A stretch of 28,931 nucleotides of DNA from IMG/VR virus record IMGVR_UViG_3300005468_000052, positions 1-28,931 of that record. One strand, 5' to 3'. A program made the translations under genes and the position numbers. Every line of letters starts with the position of its first letter. The stretch's first letter is position 1. Origin of the DNA: a virus. The notes under the pieces are model-generated. The model had not been told where the DNA came from. It did not search any database and saw only the letters and a program-made list of their open reading frames with translations. Below are positions 3,957 through 27,574 of the stretch, piece after piece.

Positions 3957-4330
3957 AAGAGCCGAGATTCTTCATTGACCATGACTGTATTCACGACCGC
4001 TTGACGGGGCGACATATTCACGGCGACCGAAGCATGGAGCCCGGTATAGCAGATGAAGCCGTGGCGATGCTCAATGAATTGAATTCTGTCGCCGCCAGTG
4101 TTGCCGAGCTTCAGGCCGCTATTTCGGCCCAATGGATTGACGCCAAGCGATATAGGTGGTTACGTTCTCAACGGGCGGTTCTTCTTGAGTCTGATCAAAC
4201 TCAATGGGAGCGCAACGACGGCACGAAATATCAATCATCCCACAGGCTTTGCGCGAATGACACGCAATTCGCCTCCTACGAAACGCTTGATGCAACTATC
4301 GACGCCGCCATGAGGGTTTGTAAGCCATGA
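3953..4330 (+). CDS. Phage protein with the second copy of the FIDHDC module
   Basis: 125 residues. Residues 5-43 repeat the module of the protein at 1900 with three changes (Asp to Ser, Val to Met, Val to Ile). The C-terminal part (DAKRYRWLR ... ETLDATIDAAM) is a common ending of uncharacterised phage proteins. Thus the module is joined here to a different partner domain, without the zinc ribbon. It is bounded by ATGA overlaps. Function unknown; the many His, Asp and Cys residues of the module could bind metal. Confidence 0.7.
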   Translation: MKEPRFFIDHDCIHDRLTGRHIHGDRSMEPGIADEAVAMLNELNSVAASVAELQAAISAQWIDAKRYRWLRSQRAVLLESDQTQWERNDGTKYQSSHRLCANDTQFASYETLDATIDAAMRVCKP

Positions 4331-8978: not shown

Positions 8979-9056
8979 GTGGTCAATGTAGCATTGCCGG
9001 GGCCAGAACCTGAGAGAGTGCCGGAACCGCATTATTTGCATGGAATCTGGAGATGA
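8979..9056 (+). CDS. Possible 25-residue minicistron (GTG start)
   Basis: From a GTG at 8979 the frame reads a Pro/Glu-rich peptide (NVALPGPEPERVPEPHY) and stops in an ATGA overlap with the gene at 9053. It fills what would otherwise be a 78-base gap. There is no clear Shine-Dalgarno and no known family. Confidence 0.3.
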   Translation: MVNVALPGPEPERVPEPHYLHGIWR

Positions 9057-9322
9057 CCAAAAAACAGCGGAAATATAAGGCCAAGGAACTGCAAAACATC
9101 CGCAGAATAGACCGCTTAGGGACAAGCATAACGCTTCAAAAAGCGCAGAAAATGTGCATGGACAAGCGAAGGTTTATATCAAAGAATGAGGCTAGGGATT
9201 TTGCACTGCGCGGCGAGGCGAGATTCCAGTCGGGCGAGATGGGGAGCTACAAATGCCAGTTATGCGGCGGCTTTCATTTGACGACCGTTACTGCGGCGAT
9301 CTGGAAAAGCGCTGGAAAATAA
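9053..9322 (+). CDS. Zinc-ribbon-like phage protein
   Basis: 89 residues. A basic N-terminus (MTKKQRKYKAKEL) precedes CMDKRRFISKNEAR and then KCQLCGGFHLTT (67-78), with CxxCG-x-x-H as a likely zinc site. Small proteins with this 'YxCxLCGGWHL' ending are common in phages. Probably a nucleic-acid-binding protein. GGAG lies 4 bases before the ATG. Confidence 0.6.
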   Translation: MTKKQRKYKAKELQNIRRIDRLGTSITLQKAQKMCMDKRRFISKNEARDFALRGEARFQSGEMGSYKCQLCGGFHLTTVTAAIWKSAGK

Positions 9323-9364
9323 CCCCAATCCTAGTTATCATCAAGCAATAACCGGAGCACCTAT

Positions 9365-9571
9365 ATGGACTTCCAGAACCGACTGGCATCATTGCTAACC
9401 CGATCCGCCCCGCAGCAACCCGCCCTAGCATCTCCGAATCTGGGCTCAGGCATGGCGCAACAAGCCGCGCAGGTCATGCAAAGTCGGCCCTATCAGCTCC
9501 ACATACGCGAATCGCAGGCATTGGGGCAAAGGCCACTGACGCCTGAAGAGTTCATGTTGCAGGGGAAGTAG
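9365..9571 (+). CDS. Hypothetical 68-residue protein
   Basis: Low-complexity, Gln/Ala/Pro-rich sequence (SAPQQPALASPNLGSGMAQQ) ending in QRPLTPEEFMLQGK. GGAG at 9353-9356 precedes the ATG. It lies at the change from early genes to virion genes, so it could be a minor structural protein. Not recognised. Confidence 0.5.
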   Translation: MDFQNRLASLLTRSAPQQPALASPNLGSGMAQQAAQVMQSRPYQLHIRESQALGQRPLTPEEFMLQGK

Positions 9572-9572
9572 C

Positions 9573-9743
9573 ATGCCATATACACCAGCCCAGCATCGAT
9601 TATTTGAAGCGGCAGCGCATAATGCGGCAATTGCAAAAAGAACAGGTATGCCCCAAGACACAGCCCGTAAAATGGCATCGGAGGGCGTCAAGAGCCCATC
9701 GAAAAGGTTATCCGAACTTTTGAAAAGCCCCAAGAAGAATTAA
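9573..9743 (+). CDS. Short basic protein before the structural genes
   Basis: 56 residues, with YTPAQHRLFEAAAHNAAIAK and a Lys/Ser-rich tail (SPSKRLSELLKSPKKN). AGGGGAAG at 9561-9568 is a strong ribosome-binding site. The pattern 'T-x-x-Q-x-x-L-F-x-A...M' recurs in small proteins next to phage head genes. Function unknown. Confidence 0.55.
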   Translation: MPYTPAQHRLFEAAAHNAAIAKRTGMPQDTARKMASEGVKSPSKRLSELLKSPKKN

Positions 9744-9758
9744 AATCATGAGGCCAAA

Positions 9759-10544
9759 ATGGCATCTACATCTCTTGCTTCTAATGCGCCATTAACGGAT
9801 GCCCGCGCTTTCCCGATCAACGTAGGGTTTAGCTTGGTCACTGGTTATCGCCGGGTAACCGCATTAGGTAATAACCCTGACGTGGATATTCTGAGCGTCC
9901 CGGAGGATGTCTGGTCAGGCGGCGGCGCGTACCCATGGATGACCGGCGCGACAGCATTGGAAATCGTCAGTGGCAGCGCAAACGACGCAGCGGCGGGGGC
10001 GGGGGCCCGGACGGTGTTAATCCAGGGACTGGATATCAATTACGCCGAGGTATCGCAAACGGTCTCGCTGAACGGAACAACCGCAGTAGCCATCCCGACG
10101 AATCTTTTTCGCATCAACTCCGCGCTAATCATGAGCGCAGGCACTGGCAAGGTGAACGCAGGCGATTTGACGATTCGGGATGCAGGGGCCGGAACAACGC
10201 GGGCCATTATTCCGCTGGGTTACGGCATTACCAAGCAATCGATATTCACGGTACCAGCAGGGTTTACCCTACAGATCGTCAGCCAGTTATTCGGCTTCAA
10301 CAGCACGACCAAAGACAACAGGTTTGCCAAGTTCGCCACCTTTTCCCAATCGCCCAATGGCTTCTATCGCCTGCCGCTGGAAATCGCCACAAGCGATGTA
10401 ACCCCATATCGCCATGATGGTGAGCCAGGGCTGATCGTGACTGAAAAGACGGATTTTTGCCACCGGGTCACAGCCGTCAGCGATGACAACTCAAACCTGA
10501 CCGCCGCATGGCTGGGCATCATGCGGTCGAATACGGTAATTTAA
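9759..10544 (+). CDS. Virion structural protein (decoration or fibre type)
   Basis: 261 residues, beta-rich and Gly/Thr/Ala-rich. Segments such as VPEDVWSGGGAYPW, ALEIVSGSANDAAAG, VSLNGTTAVAIPTNLFRINS and YGITKQSIFTVPAG are typical of a conserved phage virion protein of unknown position. It would form a repeated beta-sandwich. It stands directly upstream of the terminase, away from the other structural genes, which is unusual. No signal peptide. Confidence 0.7.
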   Translation: MASTSLASNAPLTDARAFPINVGFSLVTGYRRVTALGNNPDVDILSVPEDVWSGGGAYPWMTGATALEIVSGSANDAAAGAGARTVLIQGLDINYAEVSQTVSLNGTTAVAIPTNLFRINSALIMSAGTGKVNAGDLTIRDAGAGTTRAIIPLGYGITKQSIFTVPAGFTLQIVSQLFGFNSTTKDNRFAKFATFSQSPNGFYRLPLEIATSDVTPYRHDGEPGLIVTEKTDFCHRVTAVSDDNSNLTAAWLGIMRSNTVI

Positions 10545-10573
10545 GCCAGCAAAGTTAGCAATCACTAACAACA

Positions 10574-10858
10574 ATGGATACAGTACCAAAAAGTAAGCGA
10601 AAACCTCCTGTGGCGACAAGGAGCCGCAAGGGTGTGCCCAACAAGGCCACCAAACAGCTCAAGGACATGATCCTGACGGCACTTGATAACGCGGGGGGCG
10701 CAAGCTATCTGGAACGCCGCGCAAACGATCCTAGGACCGCTAGCGCTTTTCTCGCCTTGATTGGCAAAGTGCTGCCCATGACCGTGATTGGTGATCCTGA
10801 CAATCCATTGCAGGCCATCGTCAAGATCGAGCGAACCATTGTCCACCCTAAAAATTGA
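10574..10858 (+). CDS. terS: Probable small terminase subunit
   Basis: 94 residues. A basic N-terminus (KSKRKPPVATRSRKGVPNKA) is followed by a helical part (LKDMILTALDNAGGASYLE) and LIGKVLPMTV. Proteins with this sequence lie just before the large terminase in related phages and are taken as the packaging-recognition subunit. It is shorter than P22 gp3, and no classical helix-turn-helix is obvious. No Shine-Dalgarno is visible before the ATG. It overlaps the terL start by 20 bases. Confidence 0.6.
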   Translation: MDTVPKSKRKPPVATRSRKGVPNKATKQLKDMILTALDNAGGASYLERRANDPRTASAFLALIGKVLPMTVIGDPDNPLQAIVKIERTIVHPKN

Positions 10859-12167
10859 GACGCCCGCCGTTTTTGTGCCGCTGCTTGAGCCAGCGCGATA
10901 CAAAGGCGTTCACGGTGGCAGGGGTTCAGGTAAATCCCATTTCTTCGCCGAAAAGCTGATTGAAGACTGCATGGCAGAGCCTGGCGACTGGGGAGCGGGC
11001 ATGCGGGCGGTTTGCATCCGCGAGGTGCAAAAAGACTTGGCCCAATCATCCAAGGCGCTGATTGAGGCCAAACTTGCATCCTATGGCATCGGCGAGGCGG
11101 ACGGCTTCAAGGTCTTTCGGGACGTGATCCAGACCCCTGGCGATGGCCTGATGATCTTCAAAGGCATGCAGGATTACACCGCTGACAGCATCAAATCACT
11201 AGAAGGCTTCAAGCGTGCATGGTGGGAAGAGGCCCAGACCGCGACGGCTATCTCGCTAAACATGCTACGCCCGACACTGCGGGCCGATGGCTCTGAGCTA
11301 TGGTTCAGTTGGAATCCCCGGCGCAAGACCGATGCGGCTGATCAGATGCTGCGCGGCGCAGATTTGCCAACCGGGGCCAAGGTGCTGCAAGCGAACTGGC
11401 GCGATAACCCATGGTTTCCGAAGGTGCTGGAGCAAGAGCGCCTCGATTGCCTGAGGCTACAGCCTGAGCAATACAACCACATTTGGGAAGGCGGTTATGC
11501 AACCGTGCTGGAAGGCGCTTATTACGCCCTGAGCATCAATGAGGCGCGGCTGGGCGGGCGAATTGGCCGGGTTGCGGCTGATCCATTGATGACCTTGCGC
11601 GCCTTTGTGGACATTGGCGGAACGGGGGCTAGAGCGGACGCCTTCACCATCTGGATAGCTCAGTTCATCGGCAAGGAAATCCGGGTTCTGGACTATTACG
11701 AGTCGGTTGGGCAAGACTTGGCAACGCATTTGCGCTGGATGCGGTCACGCGGCTACACGCCCGACAAGGCGCATTTCTGGCTACCGCACGATGGCGCAAC
11801 CCATGACAAGGTGGTGGCCGTCAGCTATGAGAGCGCCCTGCGCGAGGCGGGATATAAGGTGACCGTCATCAAGAATCAGGGCAAAGGCGCGGCCAAGGCG
11901 CGTGTTGAGGCCGGACGCAGGCTGTTCCCGGCCATGTGGTTCAACGAAGCGACTACCCAGCCGGGAATAGATGCCCTGGGCTGGTATCACGAGAAAAAGG
12001 ACGAAGTGCGCAATGTTGGGCTTGGCCCTGAGCATGATTGGTCCAGCCACGGCGCGGACAGCTTCGGCCTGATGTGCGTTGCCTACGAGGAGCCGAAGGA
12101 CAAAAAACCCATCAACATGGACGATTACATGCCCAGCGGCGGAAATTCTTACCCATCTAATTATTAA
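10839..12167 (+). CDS. terL: Large terminase subunit (ATPase/nuclease)
   Basis: 442 residues from a TTG at 10839, which gives the expected N-terminus STLKIETPAVF; an upstream ATG at 10788 would add 17 residues of terS-overlapping sequence. Walker A is GGRGSGKS at 26-33, and the Walker B/catalytic Glu region is WWEEAQT at about 128-134. The C-terminal nuclease begins at FVDIGGTGARADAF (about 250-263) with metal-binding Asp residues, and the HGADSFG near the end supplies a further acidic site. It translocates DNA into the procapsid through the portal and cuts concatemers. Length and motifs fit a P22-like headful-type enzyme. Confidence 0.93.
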   Translation: MSTLKIETPAVFVPLLEPARYKGVHGGRGSGKSHFFAEKLIEDCMAEPGDWGAGMRAVCIREVQKDLAQSSKALIEAKLASYGIGEADGFKVFRDVIQTPGDGLMIFKGMQDYTADSIKSLEGFKRAWWEEAQTATAISLNMLRPTLRADGSELWFSWNPRRKTDAADQMLRGADLPTGAKVLQANWRDNPWFPKVLEQERLDCLRLQPEQYNHIWEGGYATVLEGAYYALSINEARLGGRIGRVAADPLMTLRAFVDIGGTGARADAFTIWIAQFIGKEIRVLDYYESVGQDLATHLRWMRSRGYTPDKAHFWLPHDGATHDKVVAVSYESALREAGYKVTVIKNQGKGAAKARVEAGRRLFPAMWFNEATTQPGIDALGWYHEKKDEVRNVGLGPEHDWSSHGADSFGLMCVAYEEPKDKKPINMDDYMPSGGNSYPSNY

Positions 12168-12199
12168 AACTATGCATTTTTTGCATAGTTAACTATACT
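12166..12199. repeat. Hairpin element, copy A, upstream of the portal gene
   Basis: AACTATGCA (12168-12176) and TGCATAGTT (12182-12190) form a perfect 9-bp stem with a TTTTT loop. The right arm also starts a perfect 12-bp palindrome, ATAGTTAACTAT (12185-12196), so it can pair with either side. The last bases read TATACT (12194-12199), a good -10 hexamer 7 bases before the portal ATG, but no -35 is convincing. The first 23 bases match copy B after the portal gene at 21 positions. Confidence 0.8.
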
Positions 12200-12206
12200 G
12201 GCGGGC

Positions 12207-14378
12207 ATGAAGCCATCGCCGGACGATTCAAAATCAATTCTTGATGAAGCAAATGAACGCTTCGAACTGATAGTCGCCACCGACAAGGACAACCGCGACA
12301 ACTACAAGGCCGATCTGGCCTTTGTCTATGCGCCCGGTGAGCAATGGCCGGAAGATGTCAAGACCAAGCGCAAGGCTTGGAACGAACTGTGCTTGGAGTT
12401 CAACCAGCTCAAGCAGTTCGTTTCCCAGGTGGTCAATGACCAGCTGCAAAACCGTCCCGGCATTCGCGTGCATGCGGCGGGCGGCGATGCCTCAAAGGAG
12501 GTGGCTGACATCGAGCAGGGCATGATTCGCGCCATTGAATACGACTCCAAGGCCGACGATGTCTACAAAAACGCCTTCAAACTGGCCGTAGCCGGTGGCC
12601 GTGGCTGGTGGCGCATAGTGTCGGAATACGAGGACAAAGACGGATTCGACCAGAAGCTGTGCATCAAGCCGATTCAGGACAGCAACACGGTTTACGCCGA
12701 CACCGACTACGAGCAGCCGGACGGCTCAGATCGGAAATACGTCTTTGTCATCGCGCGCTACACCAAAACCGAGTTTCTGAACAAGTGGCCGAACCACGAA
12801 CCGTTGTCATGGGACAACATTCCACCTTATTGGCAGGACGGCAAAGACAGCGTCGTCGTGGCCGATTACTACCGCCGCGTCTGCAAAAAGCGCACGGTGG
12901 TGCTCATGAGCGACGGCAACAGGGGCTGGAAAGATGAGATGCCGACGCCGCCAGAGGGTGTTTCCATCATCAAGGAGCGCGAGGTAGACGACTGGTCGGT
13001 GGAGTGGTATACGATTGCCGGTGGCCAACAGGTGCTGGAGACCTACGAATGGCCCGGTTCTGTGATCCCGGTGGTTTGCGTGGCTGGCGAGGATATGATT
13101 CTTGACGGCAAGCGCATTTATCAGGGCTTGACCCGGCATGCCAGAGATGCGCAGTCCATGCTCAATTTCGGCATGACACAGCAGGCCACACAGCTGGCCC
13201 TCTCGCCGCGTGCGCCCTGGGTCATGGCAGAAGGCCAGAATGAGGGCTATGAGTCCATGTGGCGCGATGCCAATAATAAGAACTGGTCGGCGCTGATTTA
13301 CAAGCCGGTCACGATTGATGGCAATATCGCGCCTCCTCCGCAGCGCACGCAGCCCGCCATGATTTCGGACGGCTGGGATCGCTGGTGCCAGACCATGATT
13401 GGCATGATCAAGTCAACCATTGGCATGTACGAGCAGTCTTTGGGACAAAAGGGCAATGAGGTCTCGGGCCGCGCCATCACCGCCCGCGAAAAGCAGGGTG
13501 ATACAGCGACGTTCAATTACGTGAACAACTGGCACATGGCTATCGACCTGACGGGCCGTATCTGCATTGAAGTGCTGCCCACGTTTTACGACACGGAACG
13601 CATCGTCAACACCATCGGCCCGGACGAAACCAAGAAGCTGGTCACGATCAACCAGGCCGCGCCGAATCCCGACAACCCACTCGAAGCCATCCGCAAAAAC
13701 GACATCACGCGCGGCAAATATGCCGTGACCGTCGAGGCTGGACCGAGCTTTGCCACCAAGCGCCAGGAAACCAGCGAAGCCTTACAGACGCTGGTGCAGG
13801 CCTTCCCGGACGTCATGCAGGTAGCTGGCGATCTGGTGGTCAAGTCGCTCGATATCGCCGACGCCGAGATCATCTCCGAGCGCCTCAAAGTCATGTTGCC
13901 GCCCCAAATCCAGCAGGCAGAACAAGCCAAGGCCGAGGGCCGCGAGCCGCCAGACCCGCAAGTCATGGCCGCGATGCAGGAAAAAGACGGCCAGCTACAG
14001 CAAGCTGCTCAGACCATGGAAAAGATGAACGAAGAGATTCAATCCCTGCGTTCCGGGGCTCAACAGAAGATGCAGGCCGCAGAGATAGACGCCAGTGTGA
14101 ACGAGAAGAAATTCATGATGGAGGCGCAGCTCAAGGACCGCCAAGCCGAAATTGATGCTTCATTGGAGCTGAAAAAGGCCGAAATGACCCAGGCGACCGA
14201 GCTGCAAAAAGCCGCGATGACGCAACAGACCGACATCAAGAAAGCCATGATTGACCGCATGACCAAGCTCGAAATTGCCGCCATGCAAGAAGACGGCGAG
14301 ATGGCGCAAACCCTGATCCATGCCGATTCGCAGCAGGCGCAAGCTGAAGAATCATTAGAGAACAAAGAAAAAGCATAG
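12207..14378 (+). CDS. P22-family portal protein
   Basis: 723 residues, nearly the length of P22 gp1 (725). The portal is a dodecameric ring at one capsid vertex that receives terminase and later gp4/gp10-type tail factors. LAFVYAPGEQWPEDVKTKRK, MAEGQNEGYESMW and SLGQKGNEVSGRAITAREKQ are family-typical. The last 150 residues (about 560-715) are a Gln/Glu/Lys/Met-rich coiled coil, which fits the C-terminal barrel helix that extends into the capsid. It is flanked by the two hairpin repeats. Confidence 0.92.
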   Translation: MKPSPDDSKSILDEANERFELIVATDKDNRDNYKADLAFVYAPGEQWPEDVKTKRKAWNELCLEFNQLKQFVSQVVNDQLQNRPGIRVHAAGGDASKEVADIEQGMIRAIEYDSKADDVYKNAFKLAVAGGRGWWRIVSEYEDKDGFDQKLCIKPIQDSNTVYADTDYEQPDGSDRKYVFVIARYTKTEFLNKWPNHEPLSWDNIPPYWQDGKDSVVVADYYRRVCKKRTVVLMSDGNRGWKDEMPTPPEGVSIIKEREVDDWSVEWYTIAGGQQVLETYEWPGSVIPVVCVAGEDMILDGKRIYQGLTRHARDAQSMLNFGMTQQATQLALSPRAPWVMAEGQNEGYESMWRDANNKNWSALIYKPVTIDGNIAPPPQRTQPAMISDGWDRWCQTMIGMIKSTIGMYEQSLGQKGNEVSGRAITAREKQGDTATFNYVNNWHMAIDLTGRICIEVLPTFYDTERIVNTIGPDETKKLVTINQAAPNPDNPLEAIRKNDITRGKYAVTVEAGPSFATKRQETSEALQTLVQAFPDVMQVAGDLVVKSLDIADAEIISERLKVMLPPQIQQAEQAKAEGREPPDPQVMAAMQEKDGQLQQAAQTMEKMNEEIQSLRSGAQQKMQAAEIDASVNEKKFMMEAQLKDRQAEIDASLELKKAEMTQATELQKAAMTQQTDIKKAMIDRMTKLEIAAMQEDGEMAQTLIHADSQQAQAEESLENKEKA

Positions 14379-14379
14379 C

Positions 14380-14414
14380 AAAACTATGTCTTTTTTGCAT
14401 AGATTGACTAGAAT
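14380..14414. repeat. Hairpin element, copy B, downstream of the portal gene
   Basis: CTATG at 14384-14388 and CATAG at 14398-14402 are spaced 14 bases apart, as in copy A, around a T6 tract. A further CATAG at 14374-14378 contains the portal stop codon, so the central CTATG can pair to the left or the right. TAGAAT at 14409-14414 stands where copy A has TATACT. Possible roles are a phage-specific promoter or operator, or a termination/attenuation element. Confidence 0.75.
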
Positions 14415-14436
14415 CAACGAAACCTAAGGTTTTCAT

Positions 14437-15468
14437 ATGAACACCATCACTATTCGTGCGGGACAGACCAGCCAGCCATTTCAGATTGGCGTGGGCTCTC
14501 TTGTCACGATCACGCCGAGCGCTACCGTCTCCAGTTCCGGCTACATCGAATACACCCTCGATACGGCGGTGAACGTGCAGAACAGTTCGGCGACCTGGAC
14601 GACTTGGCCCAAGGGCGCGGTATCCGCCAAGACCTCCGATACCGCCGCCTTCCCGGTATTTGTGCGCCTTGTATGCCTGACCGGCCAGCTTCAGGGTGAT
14701 TTTGGCGACGCCACGGGCTCAACGGCAACGCGCATCGTTCCATGGCAATCCGGTCAATCCAGTTCGCCATTCAACAGCTCTGGCGTATATCTGGGCGATA
14801 CCCCGGCAGGCGTCGTGTATGGCATGGGCGCGCAGCCGATGCTCTGGGCCAACCGACCAGACGCCACGCTGTACCCCGGCGCGGCCTTCCGCTTCACCGA
14901 TGTGGGCGGCAATACCGGAACGGGCGGCGGTAACTTCTTCTTTTCCAATGGCGTGCGTTACAAGACCGTGAACGGTACCGTGACGCTGGACACCATCGAC
15001 ACCGCGAATGCCGGGGTAGCCAATACCACCGAGCAGCAGCTCAACCCGAACGCCATCCTCATGCCTGCGGGGCTGCTGGGTGCCACCGACCGCCTGCGCG
15101 TCTACCTGTCAGCTTCCAAGAGCGGCGCGGCAGACACGGCAACGATTCGCCTGCGCATTGGGCCGCTGAAGACGGTAGCCGATCCGCTGATTGCCACCAT
15201 CAGCATGGCAACGACGAATATCTCCTTCGGCACACTGCTGGAATTCAAGCGCATCAGCGCGACCTCTCTGCAAAAGCAGGGCAATGGCGACCCCGCAGGC
15301 AACTACAACGGCATGTCGACCACGGCCTATGCGGCGGCAGTCGGCAGTCTGAGTAATTTCGACTCGGTCGGCCAATACCTCTCAATCACCCAGCAAATGA
15401 CGGGCGGTACCGAATTCATCACTATCCAGGATTACACGCTTGAGCTGTTCTCCACCGACAGCGCTTAA
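14437..15468 (+). CDS. Virion structural protein, two-module type (copy 1)
   Basis: 343 residues of beta-rich sequence. The N-terminal part (ITIRAGQTSQPFQIGVGSL) resembles the N-terminus of the 249-residue protein at 16272. The C-terminal part (LMPAGLLGATDRLRVYLSAS onward) has the strand pattern of a TNF/jelly-roll-like domain also present there. It probably sits on the capsid or tail surface as a decoration or receptor-related protein. It follows the portal gene and copy B of the hairpin element. Confidence 0.6.
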   Translation: MNTITIRAGQTSQPFQIGVGSLVTITPSATVSSSGYIEYTLDTAVNVQNSSATWTTWPKGAVSAKTSDTAAFPVFVRLVCLTGQLQGDFGDATGSTATRIVPWQSGQSSSPFNSSGVYLGDTPAGVVYGMGAQPMLWANRPDATLYPGAAFRFTDVGGNTGTGGGNFFFSNGVRYKTVNGTVTLDTIDTANAGVANTTEQQLNPNAILMPAGLLGATDRLRVYLSASKSGAADTATIRLRIGPLKTVADPLIATISMATTNISFGTLLEFKRISATSLQKQGNGDPAGNYNGMSTTAYAAAVGSLSNFDSVGQYLSITQQMTGGTEFITIQDYTLELFSTDSA

Positions 15469-15477
15469 GGATCAACC

Positions 15478-15768
15478 ATGACGACACCTTGTGGCTATCA
15501 GCAAATCACAGTGCTTACATCGGCGGTAGGGCTGACTGTGCCCGCTGCGGGCTCCATTCCCGGCATGCTGCAAGCGCCTACGCGCTGTTTGATCGTTCCC
15601 GAAGCCCAGGCGGTGCGCTGGCGCGATGATGGCACCGATCCGAGCGCAACCGTGGGCCAGCCCTTGGCGGTCGGCGCAGAGCTGCGCTATGACGGCGACC
15701 TGAAAAAGATCAAATTTTTCGAGCAGGCCGCAAGTGCCAAGCTCAATATCACTTACTACTACCCCTAA
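15478..15768 (+). CDS. Small virion-type protein
   Basis: 96 residues. EAQAVRWRDDGTDPSATVGQ, AVGAELRYDGDLKKIKFFEQ and the final ITYYYP match a small beta protein frequently found among phage head genes, of unknown role. It may be a head-decoration protein. Its TAA overlaps the next ATG (TAATG). Confidence 0.6.
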   Translation: MTTPCGYQQITVLTSAVGLTVPAAGSIPGMLQAPTRCLIVPEAQAVRWRDDGTDPSATVGQPLAVGAELRYDGDLKKIKFFEQAASAKLNITYYYP

Positions 15769-16208
15769 TGGTCGATACATCCGCATTCACGCCAAGCGCC
15801 TTTCTTCCGGGAGAGTGGACGCGGGCGACTTTGCCTGCTGCTGCCAACCACGAGAACATGGGCGCATGGGTGACGGATTGCCCCGGCTTCAGCGTCATGA
15901 TCAGCGACGGCACGATCTGGCGCACCATCGGCAAGCGCACCGAAACCTACAGCGGCACCACGGACGCCAGCGGCAATTATGCGGTGACGTTCGCCACACC
16001 CTATAGTGCCACGCCGCACATCAGCCCAGTGACCTTCCCCGCCGCCGATGCAACTACGCGCGTGCGTGTGACGGCGGCAGCACCAACCGGCTTCACGGTT
16101 AAAACCGAAAAGAACAACGCAGTGACCGTGCTTGCCATCGATGTATTGGCAATTGGTACTGCAAATGTCCCCAGTATCCCGGTTCGGGTGCTGGTGGTGG
16201 AAAGCTAA
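15768..16208 (+). CDS. Beta-rich virion protein
   Basis: 146 residues. WVTDCPGFSVMISDGTIWRT opens a strand-rich domain ending in IGTANVPSIPVRVLVVE. The second half (YAVTFATPYSATPHISPVTF) resembles the H-type-lectin-like C-terminal domains seen on phage surface proteins, which would suggest a surface or binding role. This is resemblance in pattern only. Confidence 0.55.
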   Translation: MVDTSAFTPSAFLPGEWTRATLPAAANHENMGAWVTDCPGFSVMISDGTIWRTIGKRTETYSGTTDASGNYAVTFATPYSATPHISPVTFPAADATTRVRVTAAAPTGFTVKTEKNNAVTVLAIDVLAIGTANVPSIPVRVLVVES

Positions 16209-16212
16209 AACC

Positions 16213-16275
16213 ATGAAATATCGCGCCTTCTTGGCTGGGCACGCATCAGTCTTTAACTACCGGAGCTACTCATGA
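16213..16275 (+). CDS. Possible 20-residue minicistron
   Basis: MKYRAFLAGHASVFNYRSYS, then TGA. It starts 5 bases after the previous stop and ends in an ATGA overlap with the gene at 16272, bridging a 63-base gap. It has no Shine-Dalgarno of its own. CGGAG at 16261-16265 within it serves the next gene. Confidence 0.3.
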   Translation: MKYRAFLAGHASVFNYRSYS

Positions 16276-17021
16276 GCACTACTTTTCTTTCTATCCCCGC
16301 TGGCACTACGTCCAGCCCCGTGTTTGTCACCCCCCTGACGAACGTTATCGTTGGCCCTTCCGTGCTTGGTGGCTCCGCTACCGTGACGTTCTCGCCCAGC
16401 CTGAGCATTCCCGCTTCGGCATGGCAGACCATCCAGACCGGCACCGGAGGCGGTTCGTTCCGTCCCACCACGACCGGCTATGTGTCGATTCAGGCGACGA
16501 CTTCGCAGGCTAACGCCTTCTTTGCCGACCTTGGCCCCGGTTATCAATCCGGTGGTGGCGTGATCGTGAACATCAACGCCCCACTGGCAAGCGCCTCGAC
16601 TACTTCCGAAGTGGTTCTGGCCTCGTGGAAAGTGCCTGCTGGTTACCTGAGCCCCAATTTCCGCATGGAAGTGGCTGGGAATGTCTCGCTGAGCAACAAC
16701 GCCAACGTCAAGACCCTGAAGCTCTACGCCAACGGCGCGGCAGGTACGGCCATGGCTACTTCGCCCTCGATTGCCTCGGCGCTGAACTTCAGTTTTGACA
16801 CCACGATCAGCGGACGGGATGGCGGCGCAACCTTGATTGGTACGGGTTTGCTGGCTTCGCAGACCTCGGCCCAGGGTGGCTCCGGCATCTCTACCACGGC
16901 CAATCCGACCCTGGCGCGGGATTTCCTCGGGCAAGAAACGGAATTCACATTGACCGCGACCAAGGCCACCGGCACCGACACCTTCCAGATTGAAAACCTA
17001 CTGGTGACGCTGTCCTCGTAA
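16272..17021 (+). CDS. Virion structural protein, two-module type (copy 2)
   Basis: 249 residues. Its N-terminus (LSIPAGTTSSPVFVTPLTNV) and C-terminal module (ASWKVPAGYLSPNFRMEVAG onward, ending DTFQIENLLVTL) parallel those of the protein at 14437, which ends ITIQDYTLELF. This suggests an old duplication with divergence. A surface decoration or fibre role is likely; nothing catalytic is visible. Confidence 0.6.
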   Translation: MSTTFLSIPAGTTSSPVFVTPLTNVIVGPSVLGGSATVTFSPSLSIPASAWQTIQTGTGGGSFRPTTTGYVSIQATTSQANAFFADLGPGYQSGGGVIVNINAPLASASTTSEVVLASWKVPAGYLSPNFRMEVAGNVSLSNNANVKTLKLYANGAAGTAMATSPSIASALNFSFDTTISGRDGGATLIGTGLLASQTSAQGGSGISTTANPTLARDFLGQETEFTLTATKATGTDTFQIENLLVTLSS

Positions 17022-17036
17022 TTGTTTCATCGCCTA

Positions 17037-17060
17037 CCGGTGAGCGAATCACCGGGTTTT
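17037..17060 (+). terminator. Hairpin with a short T-run before the scaffold gene
   Basis: CCGGTGA (17037-17043) and TCACCGG (17049-17055) form a perfect 7-bp GC-rich stem with a GCGAA loop, followed by G and TTTT. It resembles a weak intrinsic terminator or attenuator. It lies between the surface proteins and the scaffold/coat genes and could adjust their relative expression. The T-run is short, so termination would be partial. Confidence 0.5.
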
Positions 17061-17076
17061 GACTCTTGGGAATACC

Positions 17077-17940
17077 ATGAACGAAGACCTCCAGCTCTCA
17101 GTTGCTGATACGAATACTGAGCAACAGCTCGCAACCGACGAACAAAAGCCGGTTACTGGTGAATCGAGCACGCCAGAAGTGACGGAGACGGATGAGGAGA
17201 AAAACCTCCGCATTCAGCAGGAAGCAACGGAAAAGGCACGCCAGAAGGAAGAAAAGCGCCAGCAGAGCGTTCAGCGCCGGTTCGATGAACTGACCGCTGA
17301 CAAATATGCCGAGCGCAAACGGGCCGATCAGCTCGCCGAACAGAACGCCAAAATCTTGGCGCTACTGGAAGGCAAGCAGGGCGGCACGGCAAAACCAACG
17401 GGTGAGCCAACACGCGAACAGTTCACGGATTACGAGGACTTTGTGACGGCACGGGCAGAATACCGCGCCGAGCTGAAGGCCCAAGCGATGCTGGACAACT
17501 TCGCGCGGACGCAGCAGCAAGAGAGCGCCAAGGCCAGCGAGGACCAATCCAAGCAGGCGGCGGAACGCTCTTTTGTCGAGCGTCGGGCGGCGGCAGAAAA
17601 GGACATTCCTGATTACCGCCAAGTGGTCGAGGATTGGGAGCCCCAACTCCCGGATTCCGTGGTGGATTTGATTGTGCGGATGCCAGATGGTCCGCTGATC
17701 AGCTATCACATGGCCAAAAACCCGGCACTCGAGCGTCAGTTCCGCGAACAACCTGCCTATATGCATGGCATCTTGCTGGGTCAAATCTCGGCAGGCCTCA
17801 AAAGTCCCCAACAAAAAACAGTATCAGCAGCGCCCGCGCCTGGTAAGCCGGTCGGCACCAAGGTAGCCTCCTCCTCTGGAGATGGTTATTCCGGTGACCC
17901 GGAAGGCTACTACGCCTGGGCGCAAAAGCACATGAAATAA
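17077..17940 (+). CDS. Capsid scaffold protein
   Basis: 287 residues, very rich in Glu, Gln, Lys and Ala, mostly helical, and placed immediately before the coat gene. Charged coiled-coil sequence runs from about 40 to 170 (EKARQKEEKRQQSVQRRFDE). The C-terminal end (GYYAWAQKHMK) is basic-aromatic, as scaffolds that contact coat by a basic tail often are. It would direct procapsid assembly and leave before maturation. The ATG at 17077 has GGGA about 6 bases upstream and is preferred to an earlier TTG at 17059. Confidence 0.8.
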   Translation: MNEDLQLSVADTNTEQQLATDEQKPVTGESSTPEVTETDEEKNLRIQQEATEKARQKEEKRQQSVQRRFDELTADKYAERKRADQLAEQNAKILALLEGKQGGTAKPTGEPTREQFTDYEDFVTARAEYRAELKAQAMLDNFARTQQQESAKASEDQSKQAAERSFVERRAAAEKDIPDYRQVVEDWEPQLPDSVVDLIVRMPDGPLISYHMAKNPALERQFREQPAYMHGILLGQISAGLKSPQQKTVSAAPAPGKPVGTKVASSSGDGYSGDPEGYYAWAQKHMK

Positions 17941-17953
17941 GGACTTTTCAATC

Positions 17954-19195
17954 ATGGCAAATGGCTTTCAAAACCCGGTCATGTACACGGATGAAACACT
18001 CCGCGTGCTGGCAAACAACATCATCCTGGGCAAAAAGGTGTCCCGCAAATGGCAAAAGGAGTTCGGCAAAGAGGCGATGAAGATCGGTGACACGATCAAC
18101 ATCCGCCGCCCTGCCCGCTTCACCGTCACGACCGGCGCTGCCTATGCGGGCCAGGACTACACCGAAACGAGCGTGCCGCTGGTGGTCAATCAGCAAAAGC
18201 ACATCGACACGTCTTTCACCAGCGCCGATCTGACGCTCAAAGTGCAGGACTTTTCCGACCGGGTCATCAAGCCCGGCGCCATCCAGTTGGCGCAGACCAT
18301 CGACATCGACGGCTACATCAACGCCAAAAACACCGTGGGCAATCTGACCGGCACGGCGGGCACGGCACCGAACAACGTGTCTTTTCTGTTTGACATCGGC
18401 AAGAAGCTGGATGACTTTTCCGTGCCCCGTGATGGTTCGCGCTATTACGCCATGGACCAAGCCTCCAACGCCGCGCAGGTGGGCGCGCTGACCGGCTTCT
18501 TCAACCAGCAAAAGCAGGTGGGCGAACAATACACCGATGGCGTATTTGTCGATGGCACCAACACGGTGGGCCTGAAGATCGCCATGTCGCAAAACGTGGC
18601 ACGCCAGACGGTTGGCCCGCTGGGCGGTTCTCCCGTGGTCAACGGTGCCAGCCAGGGCCTGACCTCCGGATGGGCCAATACCGGTACGCTGGTAACCAAC
18701 GGCTGGACGGCTGCGGCTGCGCTGCGCCTGCGTGCCGGTGACGTGTTCACCGCTGTTGGCTGCAATTCGGTCAACCCCGTGACCAAGCAGACCACCGGGC
18801 AACTGATGCAGTTTGTGGTGCTGTCGGATACGTCTTCGGACGCCTCGGGCAACGCCACGATCAGCATCAGCCCCGCCATCATCACCGCTGGCCCATTCCA
18901 GAACGTCACCGCATCGCCTACCAACGGCGGCGCTCTGGTGGTTAACGGAACGGCCTCGACCAGCTACGTGCGCAATCTGTCATGGCATGAAGATGCGTTC
19001 GAGCTGGCTGTGGTGAAGATGGTTGATCTGGCTGAATTCGGCGGCTGGGGCTCTGTGCGTTCGCAAGACGGCTTTTCGATGCGCGTCTTCCGCCAGGCTG
19101 CGATCAGCACCGATACGGTTGGGAACCGCGTTGACGTTTTATACGGATGGGCGACACCGTACGCCGAACAGGCAACTCAGCAGGTTGGTGCATAA
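17954..19195 (+). CDS. P22-family major coat protein
   Basis: 413 residues (P22 gp5 has 430). The start MANGFQNPVMYTDETLRVLA, the IGDTINIRRPARF motif (near 48-60), the DLTLKVQDFSDRVIKPGAIQ region and an inserted domain in the middle (about 220-330) fit the P22 coat branch of the HK97 fold, whose insertion domain stabilises the capsid. AAGGA precedes the ATG. The gene is followed by the HNH gene at 19242. Confidence 0.93.
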   Translation: MANGFQNPVMYTDETLRVLANNIILGKKVSRKWQKEFGKEAMKIGDTINIRRPARFTVTTGAAYAGQDYTETSVPLVVNQQKHIDTSFTSADLTLKVQDFSDRVIKPGAIQLAQTIDIDGYINAKNTVGNLTGTAGTAPNNVSFLFDIGKKLDDFSVPRDGSRYYAMDQASNAAQVGALTGFFNQQKQVGEQYTDGVFVDGTNTVGLKIAMSQNVARQTVGPLGGSPVVNGASQGLTSGWANTGTLVTNGWTAAAALRLRAGDVFTAVGCNSVNPVTKQTTGQLMQFVVLSDTSSDASGNATISISPAIITAGPFQNVTASPTNGGALVVNGTASTSYVRNLSWHEDAFELAVVKMVDLAEFGGWGSVRSQDGFSMRVFRQAAISTDTVGNRVDVLYGWATPYAEQATQQVGA

Positions 19196-19212
19196 AGGCG
19201 TATACTCCATGG

Positions 19213-19227
19213 GCGGCATTTTGCCGC
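19213..19227. other. Short hairpin in the coat-HNH gap
   Basis: GCGGCA and TGCCGC form a 6-bp stem with a TTT loop, 18 bases after the coat stop. It has no T-run, so it is not a normal terminator. It may be the remains of a coat-gene terminator interrupted by the HNH insertion, or a stabilising 3' stem for the abundant coat mRNA. Confidence 0.35.
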
Positions 19228-19241
19228 TTATGGAGGCTTTT

Positions 19242-19811
19242 ATGAAGATTTGTTCTATTGATGGATGTGGCATTAAATCTCGGGCTCTTGGACTTTGCGC
19301 AACACACTATTCTAGAAAGATAAAAAACGGTGACCCATTAATAAAAAGTCTGAAGCCGCCGCCGAATTTGGCTGAAGTATTTATGAAGTACGTCAATAAA
19401 ATTGATGATGGATGTTGGATATGGACCGGCGCAAAGACAAAAGGATATGGCAAATTCAGGATGAAGGAAAAAAACATAGTTGCATCCCGAGCGTCTTGGC
19501 TTTTAAATAGGGATGTTCCTGAGAATTTTTCGGATTTACTGGTGTGCCATCATTGTGATAATCCTTCATGCGTCAAGCCAGATCATTTGTTTTTGGGGAC
19601 TACTCAAGAAAACGTCAATGACAAAATGGCAAAAGGACGGCATGACCCGGGGCGCGGGGTGGCTCAGAAAAATGCCAAGCTGGATGATGACAAGGTGAGA
19701 TTTATAAGGCAGAGGTCAATGACTGGGCCTCAATTGGCTGAGAAATTTGATGTCTCTCTGGCGCTAATAAAGGCAGTGAGAACCGGGAAGAAGTGGAAAC
19801 ACGTTATTTAA
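19242..19811 (+). CDS. HNH homing-type endonuclease
   Basis: 189 residues. The N-terminal zinc-finger-like part (Cys4, Cys9, Cys19, His22) is followed by CWIWTGAKTKGYG (58-70) and the intact HNH core VCHHCDNPSCVKPDHL (101-116) with His103-His104, Asn107 and His115. A DNA-binding end follows (KLDDDKVRFIRQ and a helix-turn-helix at about 162-182). GGAGG at 19232-19236 fixes the ATG at 19242; earlier in-frame ATGs exist. Its sequence is visibly AT-richer than the flanking genes, as expected for a mobile free-standing endonuclease. Confidence 0.87.
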   Translation: MKICSIDGCGIKSRALGLCATHYSRKIKNGDPLIKSLKPPPNLAEVFMKYVNKIDDGCWIWTGAKTKGYGKFRMKEKNIVASRASWLLNRDVPENFSDLLVCHHCDNPSCVKPDHLFLGTTQENVNDKMAKGRHDPGRGVAQKNAKLDDDKVRFIRQRSMTGPQLAEKFDVSLALIKAVRTGKKWKHVI

Positions 19812-19822
19812 AGGAAAGAATC

Positions 19823-20236
19823 ATGCAGAAACTTGAGATTGATTACAGCGAGATTTCTCTCCCCGCTGGCAGCGTCCAGCAGGAGGAATGGGAGCCGCCG
19901 GTACACAAGTACTTCGGCAAAAAGCTGCCCAACGGCAAGACCGAGAAAGAGCCGGTCTACAGCTACAAAGAATATCCGCGCATGATGTATGGCCTGCGTG
20001 ATGGCAAGATTGTGGCCCGCGTCGTGAACACCGATGAGGAGCGCGCCGCGCTGCCCGCCAATTGGGAGCCGACTTTTGCCGCCTTCGGCCATATCAGCGC
20101 TCCCTCGTTTGAGCAGAAGATTGCCATGGAGCGCACAGCCCAAGACATTGCCGCGCAAGGTGTACCAACCGGCGAGTCTGGCGAAACAGTGATGGCCGAT
20201 GCGCCGCGCCGTGGCCGCCCACCCAAGGCTGAATAA
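19823..20236 (+). CDS. Small head-region protein with an AT-hook-like tail
   Basis: 137 residues. EPVYSYKEYPRMMYGLRDGK and ARVVNTDEERAALPANW are recognisable in small proteins between coat and adaptor genes of related phages. The C-terminus ends APRRGRPPKAE, an AT-hook-like RGRPP sequence that may contact DNA. AAAGGAAAG precedes the ATG. It may help finish or line the head; the function is unknown. Confidence 0.6.
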   Translation: MQKLEIDYSEISLPAGSVQQEEWEPPVHKYFGKKLPNGKTEKEPVYSYKEYPRMMYGLRDGKIVARVVNTDEERAALPANWEPTFAAFGHISAPSFEQKIAMERTAQDIAAQGVPTGESGETVMADAPRRGRPPKAE

Positions 20237-20925
20237 TGTCCACGGTAGAAACTCTCGTCCGTGATGCCATGCTGGCCGCCCGTGTCATCGGGCAGGACCA
20301 GACCGTGGCATCTGGTGACGGCCAATTAGTGCTGCGTCGGCTGAATCGCATGCTGGACTCTTGGTCCAACGAAAAGCAGATGATTTTCAGCAACGATTCC
20401 GAGAGTTTCAACATGGTAGCGGGCCAGCAGTCCTACAGCACGGCCTTGCTGCCTTCCGGTCGCCCAGTGGCGATCAATTCCATGCGGGTGAGCCTGAACA
20501 ACCTCGATTACCCGGTTGATTTCATAGACCAGCTCAAGTGGAACGATATCACCTACAAGCTGACGCAATCGATCCCGCGCTGGTGCTACTACGACGGGGC
20601 TTATCCAAATGCCTCGATGTTCTTTTACCCGGTCCCCTATGCCGCCTTCACCTGCACGGTGTATGCGCAGCGGGTGCTGAGTGCGCCACTGACCCTGGCG
20701 ACAAACCTGACCATGCCAGCAGGCTACGAAGCCGCGATTGTGGCGGGACTGGCCGTGGACATCAGCCCGAGCTTTGTCAAGCAGCCGACGCCCGCGATGA
20801 TGCTGGACAAGACAGAAACCCGTGCCGTCCTCAAGCGTACCAACTTCCAACCGCTGGAGATGGAGACGCCATTTGACGGCAACACCGCAGATATCTCGAA
20901 CGCCTTCCCATATCGCACTTTCTGA
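20236..20925 (+). CDS. P22 gp4-like head-tail adaptor
   Basis: 229 residues (P22 gp4 has 166). It is the first tail accessory factor, which binds the portal ring after packaging. The helical N-terminal half (LVRDAMLAARVIGQ ... LVLRRLNRMLDSWSNEKQMI) and the later GYEAAIVAGLAVDISPSF are typical of the family. The TAATG overlap with the previous gene suggests coupled translation. It lies just upstream of the GroES and gp10-like genes. Confidence 0.85.
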   Translation: MSTVETLVRDAMLAARVIGQDQTVASGDGQLVLRRLNRMLDSWSNEKQMIFSNDSESFNMVAGQQSYSTALLPSGRPVAINSMRVSLNNLDYPVDFIDQLKWNDITYKLTQSIPRWCYYDGAYPNASMFFYPVPYAAFTCTVYAQRVLSAPLTLATNLTMPAGYEAAIVAGLAVDISPSFVKQPTPAMMLDKTETRAVLKRTNFQPLEMETPFDGNTADISNAFPYRTF

Positions 20926-20940
20926 ACAACAAGGAAAAAC

Positions 20941-21348
20941 ATGAACGCAATCGCTACTGTTGAACAAGAGGCCATCCAAATGGTCCAGGATGATTTCCCG
21001 ATCCGTCCAATTGGAGACATCATTATTGTGGAGCAGCTCACAGAAGACGTTTCCGAAGGCGGGATTATCCTGACCGGCGACCACAAGAAGTTCCCGTGCG
21101 GCAAGGTGGTGGCGCACGGCCCTGGGCGCGTCTATACGACCTACCTGGATGCCTCCGGTCACCATCTCGCGGGCCAAGTCGTGCCAGTGAGTGTACAGGT
21201 CGGTGATTATGTGATCTTCGGCAAGTACAACTCGGGCGGCGAGCCCATTGAAATCGAGGGCCGTAAATTCCTGATGTGTCGTGAAGGCGATATTGGCGGC
21301 ATCTCCAAAATCGGCCCATCCCTGCGCGTGCGTCTCGCCGTGGCGTAA
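20941..21348 (+). CDS. GroES-like co-chaperonin
   Basis: 135 residues, longer than E. coli GroES (97) by an N-terminal extension of about 20 and an insertion near 65-75. IRPIGDIIIVEQ (21-32) matches the GroES start, VSEGGIILTG (37-46) matches the mobile loop that binds GroEL (IIL in place of IVL), and GKVVAHGPGR, VQVGDYVIFGKY and MCREGDI follow in the right order. A heptameric lid for host GroEL is expected. Placed among assembly genes, its likely client is the coat or a tail protein, as GroEL assists P22 coat folding. Confidence 0.85.
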   Translation: MNAIATVEQEAIQMVQDDFPIRPIGDIIIVEQLTEDVSEGGIILTGDHKKFPCGKVVAHGPGRVYTTYLDASGHHLAGQVVPVSVQVGDYVIFGKYNSGGEPIEIEGRKFLMCREGDIGGISKIGPSLRVRLAVA

Positions 21349-21350
21349 AC

Positions 21351-22760
21351 ATGGCAAAAATCCCGGTTTTTGGCTTGGGGCTGGCGTCAAAGTCGCCGTA
21401 TGTCACCGCCAAACTGATGACCAATATGTATGCGGAGAGCCGTCCGCAGGGCGAGAAATCGGCCATGGTCGGCTATCGCACGCCGGGGCTGAATGTTTTT
21501 ACCGACATTGGCGGCATGAATCCACCACGCGGAAGCCGCACGGTCGAGCGCACCGGGGCCTGCTATGTGGTCATCGGGAATACCTTCTATCAGATCAGCA
21601 CTCTCGGCGCGACTACCAGCCTGGGGACATTGAATACCTTCACGGGCCGCGTCTCCATGAGCGACAACGGCGTGCAGGTGATGATCGTCGATGGCCTCTA
21701 TGGCTACATCTACAACGTCAACACCGGGATATTCGTTCAAATCACCGATGTGGACTTCCCGGCGAATCCGACCACGGTCACTTACCTGTCAACCCGGTTC
21801 ATTATCAGCCTGCAAGCCTCCAGCCGGTTTTATGTATCGGCGATCAATGACGGTCTGTCATGGGATGCGCTGATGTTCGCCAATGCCGAAACCAACCCCG
21901 ACCCGATTATTGCGGTCTGGGCCTCGAACGGCCAATTGATCCTGCAAGGCAGCGTTTCCACCGAATATTGGGGCGATTCCGGCGCACTCGATTTCCCCTT
22001 TACCCTGATCACCGGCACGGCCACCGAATGGGGGCTCGCTGCTACGTGGAGTGTGGCGAAATACGACAACTCCATTGCCTGCCTGACGAAAAACCGCATG
22101 GGCCAGGTCATGGTGGCGAAAATCGCCGGGTACTTGCCGCAAAAGATCAGTACGCCCGACCTCGACAACATCATCAACGGCTATGCCACGGTTAGCGATG
22201 CATCGGCATATACCTATATGCTGGGCGGCCATGCGATGTATGTGATTAATTTCCCATCGGCTGGCGCAACCTGGTTATATGACGGCCTGACCACCATGTG
22301 GAGCAAGCTCAAGAGCTTTGGCATCGCCCGGCACCGCGCCGAATTCGGCTTTTCATTCAACAACAAAACCATCGTGGCCGATTACGCCATGGGTGTGCTA
22401 TATGAACTCACCGACACCGCAAAGACCGACAACGGCCAGCAGATCGAGGCCGAAATCATCAGTGAAAACATCGGCTCGCCTGATTTGGACCGGCTGACCA
22501 TCGACAAATTCCGCGTGGATATTCAGGTGGGCCAAGGTTCTTTAGCTGTCCCCAATCCGCAAATCGGGCTGTCGGTCAGCCGCGATAACGGCAAGACCTA
22601 CGGCGCGGAGATGCTGCGCGACATCGGCCCCATCGGCAATTACCGCAATACCGTGGACTGGAATATGCTGGGCACGGCACGGGATGTTGTGTTCAAACTG
22701 CGCGTATCAGACCCATTCGACTTCACCTTGGTCAACGCCATCATCAATCCGGATAATTAA
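21351..22760 (+). CDS. P22 gp10-like packaged-DNA stabilisation/tail hub protein
   Basis: 469 residues, nearly the same length as P22 gp10 (472). It binds below the gp4 ring, keeps DNA in the head and carries the tail needle and spikes. AKLMTNMYAESRPQGEKSAM near the start, VSTEYWGDSGALDFPF in the middle and the SDPFDFTLVNAIINPDN end are family-typical. It begins 2 bases after the GroES stop and ends in a TAATG overlap. Confidence 0.9.
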   Translation: MAKIPVFGLGLASKSPYVTAKLMTNMYAESRPQGEKSAMVGYRTPGLNVFTDIGGMNPPRGSRTVERTGACYVVIGNTFYQISTLGATTSLGTLNTFTGRVSMSDNGVQVMIVDGLYGYIYNVNTGIFVQITDVDFPANPTTVTYLSTRFIISLQASSRFYVSAINDGLSWDALMFANAETNPDPIIAVWASNGQLILQGSVSTEYWGDSGALDFPFTLITGTATEWGLAATWSVAKYDNSIACLTKNRMGQVMVAKIAGYLPQKISTPDLDNIINGYATVSDASAYTYMLGGHAMYVINFPSAGATWLYDGLTTMWSKLKSFGIARHRAEFGFSFNNKTIVADYAMGVLYELTDTAKTDNGQQIEAEIISENIGSPDLDRLTIDKFRVDIQVGQGSLAVPNPQIGLSVSRDNGKTYGAEMLRDIGPIGNYRNTVDWNMLGTARDVVFKLRVSDPFDFTLVNAIINPDN

Positions 22761-22996
22761 TGGCCCTGATTAATACCCCTCCGCAAACCGGCGTAGACGC
22801 CATTCTGGGCACGGGCTGGGCTGAATGGCTCAATTCCGCATATAACATCCTGACCGCCCTGACGCAAAGCGGCACCACGGCACAGCGTCCCGTAAAACTG
22901 TTGTGGGTCGGGAGGACATTTTTTGATGTAACGCTGAATCGGCCTATCTGGTATACCGGCACGAACTGGATCCGCGCAGACGGGGTGGTGGTCTGA
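22760..22996 (+). CDS. Small tail-tip-like protein
   Basis: 78 residues. The N-terminal half (TGVDAILGTGWAEWLNSAYN) is amphipathic. The C-terminal half (LLWVGRTFFDVTLNRPIWYT) is the 'FFDTTL-x-KPIW-x-GTxW' ending common at the ends of phage fibre proteins. It occupies the position where P22 has its tail needle gp26, although it is far shorter. It overlaps both neighbours (TAATG and TGATG). Confidence 0.6.
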   Translation: MALINTPPQTGVDAILGTGWAEWLNSAYNILTALTQSGTTAQRPVKLLWVGRTFFDVTLNRPIWYTGTNWIRADGVVV

Positions 22997-23292
22997 TGGA
23001 AATAGAACACCGTTTTGGCGGCGGGGTTTATATCAAGGAAACCCATTTTTTGGCCGGAGAATCTGGCGAAAAGCATATTCATGATTACGATCATTTGTCA
23101 TATTTGGTATCGGGTCGGGTAGAATTGAAAGTGGACGGCGTGACAGTCCGGCTCGAAGGGCCAAAAACACTCACGATTGAAGCGGGAAAATCTCATCAGG
23201 TGACCGCCCTGACAAACGTAACATGGCTTTGTATCCATGCTACGGAATGCACCGACCCCGAAAAGGTTGACGGTGTTTTGTTAGGAGCATAA
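22996..23292 (+). CDS. Cupin-domain protein in the tail cluster
   Basis: 98 residues forming one cupin barrel. GEKHIHDYDHLSYLVSGRVE (24-43) is the first cupin motif with His27, His29 and His33 as likely metal ligands, and IEAGKSHQVTA (60-70) is the second with His66. Cupins of this form sit beside tail genes in many phages without a known reaction. It could be a structural barrel or a small sugar-related enzyme. Confidence 0.8.
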   Translation: MEIEHRFGGGVYIKETHFLAGESGEKHIHDYDHLSYLVSGRVELKVDGVTVRLEGPKTLTIEAGKSHQVTALTNVTWLCIHATECTDPEKVDGVLLGA

Positions 23293-23294
23293 CT

Positions 23295-24419: not shown

Positions 24420-24420
24420 C

Positions 24421-25668: not shown

Positions 25669-25674
25669 ACGGTA

Positions 25675-27441: not shown

Positions 27442-27520
27442 TGGACTTGAAAATGCCATACAAAAACGCTAGCACGGCAAGAATGCCGAGCTTCCAAAGC
27501 ATGAAATCGGTGAACTCCAT
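27422..27520 (-). CDS. Antisense 32-residue membrane peptide
   Basis: MEFTDFMLWKLGILAVLAFL then a Tyr-Gly turn and a basic tail (FKSITAPRK), a single-span membrane peptide with a cytoplasmic basic end. AAGGAG on the minus strand (27533 down to 27528) lies 7 bases before the ATG. It overlaps the last 20 bases of the ejection gene and lies opposite the gap before the tail fibre, so it is the only minus-strand gene I find. Small single-span proteins like this are frequent in phages, but the function is unknown. No clear promoter is seen upstream. Confidence 0.65.
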   Translation of the reverse strand: MEFTDFMLWKLGILAVLAFLYGIFKSITAPRK

Positions 27521-27574
27521 TGCTGGACTCCTTCAAGAAATGAGGGATTCATTCTATACCTATAAGGAGCCGTC

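Follow-up and report, generated by a model that had tools for sequence, protein, structure and literature searches.

Paired palindromes flanking the portal gene of a P22-like phage resemble a Burkholderiales gdhA operator

LysR-type transcriptional regulators (LTTRs) recognise a T-N11-A site that often lies near position -65, and binding there is often tied to repression (PMC8407307). A regulator of this class is known to act on a gene set of phage P22: OxyR of the host activates and represses the gtr operon, according to which of two sites, overlapping or upstream of the promoter, is occupied (PMC2909390). The late genes of P22 and of phage L are arranged as terminase, portal, scaffold and coat; the late operon of P22 is transcribed from a single promoter, and paired operators of the kind considered here are not described for it (PMC8022706).

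The window analysed here, i.e. the whole stretch of 28.9 kb, comprises positions 1-28,931 of the IMG/VR fragment IMGVR_UViG_3300005468_000052 and shares this order of late genes: the gene for the large terminase subunit (terL) is followed by an intergenic element A, the portal gene, a second element B, four further genes, and the scaffold and coat genes. The terL–portal gap (39 bases) and the gap between the portal and P0003 genes (58 bases) are both AT-rich. A second contig, 99.99% identical over the overlap, contains A and B as well. The features of this region, all on the plus strand, are as follows.

10788-12167, plus strand: terL, terminase large subunit (PF04466, PHROG 2); the actual start is possibly further in.
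12166-12188, plus strand: element A, AAAACTATGCATTTTTTGCATAG, with the operator core CTATGCATTTTTTGCATAG at 12170-12188 and a palindrome with 9-base arms at 12168-12190.
12191-12196, plus strand: third arm AACTAT, to the right of A.
12194-12199, plus strand: -10-like hexamer TATACT following A.
12207-14378, plus strand: P22-type portal gene (PF16510, E 1.8e-150), flanked by A and B.
14373-14378, plus strand: third arm GCATAG, to the left of B; its TAG is the portal stop codon.
14380-14402, plus strand: element B, AAAACTATGTCTTTTTTGCATAG, with the operator core CTATGTCTTTTTTGCATAG at 14384-14402.
14409-14414, plus strand: -10-like hexamer TAGAAT following B.
14425-14429, plus strand: TAAGG, a Shine-Dalgarno-like sequence ahead of the gene that follows the portal.
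14437-15468, plus strand: P0003, first gene past B, with relatives at 55-62% in three contigs and no Pfam or PHROG match.

Elsewhere in the window, the structural module encodes a GroES-like co-chaperonin (Cpn10, PF00166; 20941-21348) between the coat and head-closure genes; in phage DSL-LC05, a GroES-like co-chaperonin gene stands immediately ahead of the portal gene. An HNH-endonuclease-like reading frame lies directly 3' of the coat gene (19212-19811; matches slightly under the Pfam cut-offs), and the tail region encodes a small cupin-domain protein (PF07883; 22996-23292). A 125-nt segment occurs twice with 80% identity (2048-2172 and 3957-4081), within two open reading frames that have the peptide stretch FIDHDCIHDRLTGRHIHGDR in common and no Pfam match. 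The Rfam and tRNA scans were empty.

Elements A and B agree in 21 of 23 bases, as the preliminary description of this DNA had stated, and both have a T6 tract and CTATG and CATAG starting 14 bases apart. Nine bases lie between CTATG and CATAG in each element, so that the search string proposed in that description, AACTATG-N8-CATAG, would miss A and B alike. With up to three mismatches, the pattern CTATGNNTTTTTTGCATAG matched the window twice, compared with 0.11 matches expected, and none of 100 shuffles gave two; in a search of the whole record it was found at A and B only. The twin elements are real and not a product of chance. With its 9-base arms, A is also the only perfect inverted repeat of the window with arms of at least 8 bases and a loop of 3-10 bases.

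In P22-like relatives, the terL and portal genes usually overlap or are separated by no more than about a dozen bases, or an extra gene is interposed, and the P0003-like gene after the portal overlaps the portal gene in two relatives (L044 and L223). The junctions occupied by A and B are wider than the matching ones in these phages. The element is absent from all of the approximately 40 related terL–portal and post-portal junctions, in agreement with the earlier statement that it is not a known feature of the P22 module. Conservation in relatives, which had been put forward as a check, thus fails for the phages of close gene order and holds for phages at large, in which the site recurs (see below). 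At these joints, several relatives show (by eye) a hairpin resembling a terminator or a promoter of sigma70-like type, and control at these positions may therefore recur by other means. Terminator-like hairpins with T-runs stand directly after or before the portal gene in L225, L040 and L109 (by eye). The terminase has relatives at 64-78% identity, whereas the portals of those relatives that encode one of P22 type show only about 26-36% identity. This contrast, together with the location of A and B at unusually wide joints, would fit short repeats left by, or promoting, the exchange of portal genes between phages. We regard such an origin as scarcely probable: unequal evolutionary rates can yield the same contrast in identity, and exchange leaves unexplained the -10 hexamers, the fit to a host operator and the presence of the same core in other phages, which are described below.

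The third arms noted previously exist on both sides, GCATAG to the left of B and AACTAT to the right of A, and the two elements differ in how they are predicted to fold as RNA. The 23-mer of A folds strongly (-10.2 kcal/mol, z -5.8) without using its third arm. The central hairpin of B is weak (-4.2), and a fold in which the left arm pairs with CTATG is preferred (-8.4 kcal/mol, z -3.4). This left hairpin (AAAAAGCATAG / CTATGTCTTTTTT) might end or slow the post-portal message, which would make the elements RNA attenuators or terminators; phage L has a putative intra-operon terminator (PMC8022706), and the hairpins beside the portal genes of the three relatives named above point in the same direction. 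However, B has an AT-rich stem and its T-run takes part in the pairing, while A has neither a left arm nor a T-run after its stem, so that the twins would not share an attenuator function. A terminator scan reported nothing at A or B, and neither has the G+C-rich stem followed by a T-run that defines an intrinsic terminator. We consider this explanation improbable. The attenuator function suggested in the preliminary description finds no support at A, where no T-run follows the hairpin, and only little at B, with its AT-rich stem.

A -10-like hexamer follows each element, as had been noted, 5 (A) and 6 (B) bases past the palindrome. Scored with a simple -10 matrix, TATACT and TAGAAT rank 5th and 8th among the 28,925 plus-strand hexamers of the window, ranks that reflect consensus scores and are not evidence of transcription. 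The corresponding -35 hexamers at 17 bp spacing are poor (TATGCA for A, ATGTCT for B); as sigma70 -10/-35 pairs with a spacing of 16-18, the two sites rank 25th (A) and 15th (B) of 28,895, and a stricter scan lists neither. The predicted start at A (about 12206) adjoins the portal ATG, and a portal message from A would therefore be almost leaderless. The predicted start at B (about 14421) leaves space for TAAGG ahead of the next ATG. The palindromes would span about -38 to -16 of these predicted promoters.

A scan of 84,980 species (257 Gb) with the 19-base pattern returned 21 loci, 17 of which lie upstream of the glutamate dehydrogenase gene gdhA in Burkholderiales. These many gdhA matches represent one orthologous locus and not independent events, which counts against a link between the phage elements and gdhA. 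A gene for a HypT-like LysR regulator adjoins 14 of the 17 (HypT is the closest named family of this LysR-type gene, which scores under the family cut-off). With a looser pattern applied to 196 genomes of the same GTDB family, 9 of 12 matches fell at the regulator–gdhA junction, with variable centres as expected of an operator. Junctions were also regathered via the regulator protein, and not via the motif, to remove the bias of a motif search; this gave 30 loci, 26 of them with gdhA adjacent within the DNA covered. In each of the 26 junctions, the best site retains at least 8 and up to all 10 of the arm bases of CTATG-N9-CATAG; ATG and GCAT are constant, and all 26 have another box, ATGC-N7-GCAT, 3 bases farther downstream (by eye). 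A conserved two-box operator of LysR type, described from sequence, lies between the HypT-like regulator gene and gdhA in Burkholderiales (L227-L256); our literature searches found no paper describing a gdhA regulator or operator of the HypT-like LysR type.

On a position matrix built from 19 distinct host sites (host score range 21.5-32.4), A scores 32.4, equal to the host maximum, and B scores 26.5, equal to the host median. The next-best site of the window reaches 10.5, reverse readings of A and B excluded, and 1.41 Mb of related viral loci contained no site scoring as high as B. Both elements are oriented toward the downstream gene as in the hosts, and both have the dyad symmetry of an LTTR box: A has ATGC-N7-GCAT exactly, and B has ATGT-N7-GCAT with T-N11-A kept. 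The unusual GTC centre of B is shared with one host site, and A is identical to three host sites over 24 bases, an identity that, taken alone, is at chance level in a search with the whole window. It also speaks against a relationship to gdhA that, among random palindromes built around the same centre, 0.23% match the score of B. Since their best match is a host operator, the earlier description of the elements as phage-specific is not supported. Its promoter or operator reading is favoured by the host-operator fit, the good -10 hexamers and the fact that the site is found again ahead of late genes in other, unrelated phages.

The phage elements and the gdhA operator are alike in the 19-base core, its orientation and the T-N11-A symmetry, but differ in layout. 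The second box was not found after A or B. The core lies near -65 of gdhA in the hosts (by eye) and would lie near -28 in the phage, where the core centres are 28 (A) and 44 (B) bases ahead of the start codons, away from the usual siting near -65 with an activation site at -35. As A and B lack the second box and do not lie at -65, the usual LTTR activation geometry is absent. Activation of this usual kind was also rejected for both elements, as transcription that starts 65 bases from the core centre would begin within the genes. LTTR sites located over a promoter are known for repression.

We therefore put forward, tentatively and at somewhat less than an even chance, that A and B are operators for a regulator with the specificity of the gdhA-adjacent HypT-like LTTR of Burkholderiales, gating weak secondary promoters of late genes. 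In this hypothetical mechanism (i) a dimeric regulator would bind A and B as double-stranded DNA; (ii) each operator would lie over a weak secondary promoter with a good -10 and a poor -35, that of the portal gene (A) and that of the gene after it (B); (iii) binding at a site that lies over the promoter would allow the regulator to block or gate it; and (iv) release of the regulator would allow extra message for the portal and the following genes. We infer regulator binding, promoter activity, the direction of control and a Burkholderiales host for this phage. Such a mechanism would resemble the gtr operon of P22 in that a host LysR-type regulator acts on a gene of a P22-like phage (PMC2909390). 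It would differ in that gtr is a conversion operon under phase variation by OxyR and Dam, whereas the elements described here suit a different regulator class, lack a GATC switch and accompany structural genes. Internal promoters would also set this phage apart from P22, whose late operon has only one promoter.

The same core is found in other phages. A degenerate pattern search yielded the 23-base sequence AACTATGCATTTWTTGCATAACC in eight further phage contigs, of which about six are distinct (L258, L259, L260, L261, L264, L265, L268 and L271), with diverged flanks and host-matrix scores of 31.7-32.1 in all eight; the core was fixed by the query, and the independent evidence in these contigs is the conserved ACC after the core and the diverged surroundings. 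In five of them (L259, L260, L265, L268 and L271) the site lies 270-370 bases ahead of a small-terminase gene of the Sf6 type, with terL next after it where the contigs reach far enough; other genes lie downstream in L261 and L264, and the L258 contig ends too soon to tell. These phages share the core with the present one but carry one copy per stretch, farther from the gene, with unrelated flanks and two downstream gene sets. Among relatives of this second group, Sinorhizobium phage phiM5 and two Manatee Spring records have no good site. Polynucleobacter was considered as a host of the second group and rejected, as matches were scattered (9 of 186 genomes). Viral contigs contain the exact pattern about as often as expected by chance (19 matches; the reversed control gave 16), although several of the matches have an AGCTATG...CATAGCT extension in common. 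This related palindrome, AGCTATG-N9-CATAGCT with T6, reaches beyond the searched core in L005, L008, L010, L012, L017, L018, L020 and L021. In three further phage contigs, AACTATGCAAGTTTTGCATAGTT occurs a short distance ahead of a near-consensus sigma70 promoter (TTGACA, 16 bases, TACAAT), at the following positions.

L128, 3946-3966: AACTATGCAAGTTTTGCATAGTT.
L129, 673-693: AACTATGCAAGTTTTGCATAGTT.
L130, 10007-10027: AACTATGCAAGTTTTGCATAGTT.

The presence of the core in other phages and of the longer palindrome in still others is compatible with a different regulator, one encoded by the phage itself and perhaps outside this fragment, in which case the likeness to the gdhA site would be a convergence of short AT-rich palindromes. 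The record is a genome fragment, and two operators, each over a promoter with a good -10 hexamer, suit any dimeric regulator. We consider this explanation unlikely, although it is the most serious competitor of the gdhA-type operator, as it leaves unexplained the detailed agreement with the 19-position host matrix, the orientation and the GTC centre that B has in common with a host site.

In a search of 257 Gb, a palindrome may resemble an operator somewhere by chance, so that the weight of the gdhA reading depends on what the host is. The closest match of the coat protein (47%) is encoded in a genome of the family to which GTDB assigns Duganella, and the nearest portals include that of a Rhodoferax phage, while the terminase points to EBPR, Bradyrhizobium and Sulfitobacter phages. 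The five genomes whose prophage-like portal or coat genes come closest to those of this phage contain no CTATG-N9-CATAG. A DNA search of window positions 9000-28900 against the genus Duganella gave no prophage or clear spacer, only chance-level pieces and the gdhA site, and each spacer, compared by BLAST with known phages, gave weak matches only. In Duganella-type hosts, the perfect site CTATGC-N7-GCATAG occurs exactly once in 17 of 18 genomes with a match and twice in the remaining one, so that two sites per phage copy could compete for the regulator. The replicating phage genome might accordingly act as a decoy, titrating the host regulator and thereby altering both the expression of gdhA and the nitrogen metabolism of the cell, and the operator fit needs no promoter geometry for this. 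Yet decoys need no promoter, and high-ranking -10 hexamers follow both sites at nearly equal distance; we consider titration very improbable.

In summary, the twin elements suggest, as far as sequence comparison can, that a host metabolic regulator acts on late genes of this phage. A broader hypothesis, which we regard as doubtful, is that unrelated phages have each brought their hosts' gdhA-type operator to the promoters of late genes, with a nitrogen or glutamate regulator gating packaging and portal genes and tying virion assembly to host metabolism. The analysis also outlines a conserved LysR-type gdhA operator across Burkholderiales, on which, as stated above, the literature searches found no paper. 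Action of a host LysR-type regulator on a phage gene is documented for a conversion operon, by OxyR at P22 gtr. If the operator reading is true, two copies of a metabolic regulator's operator within the head-assembly cluster would extend host control to a new place and offer a testable link between the nitrogen state of the host and virion production.
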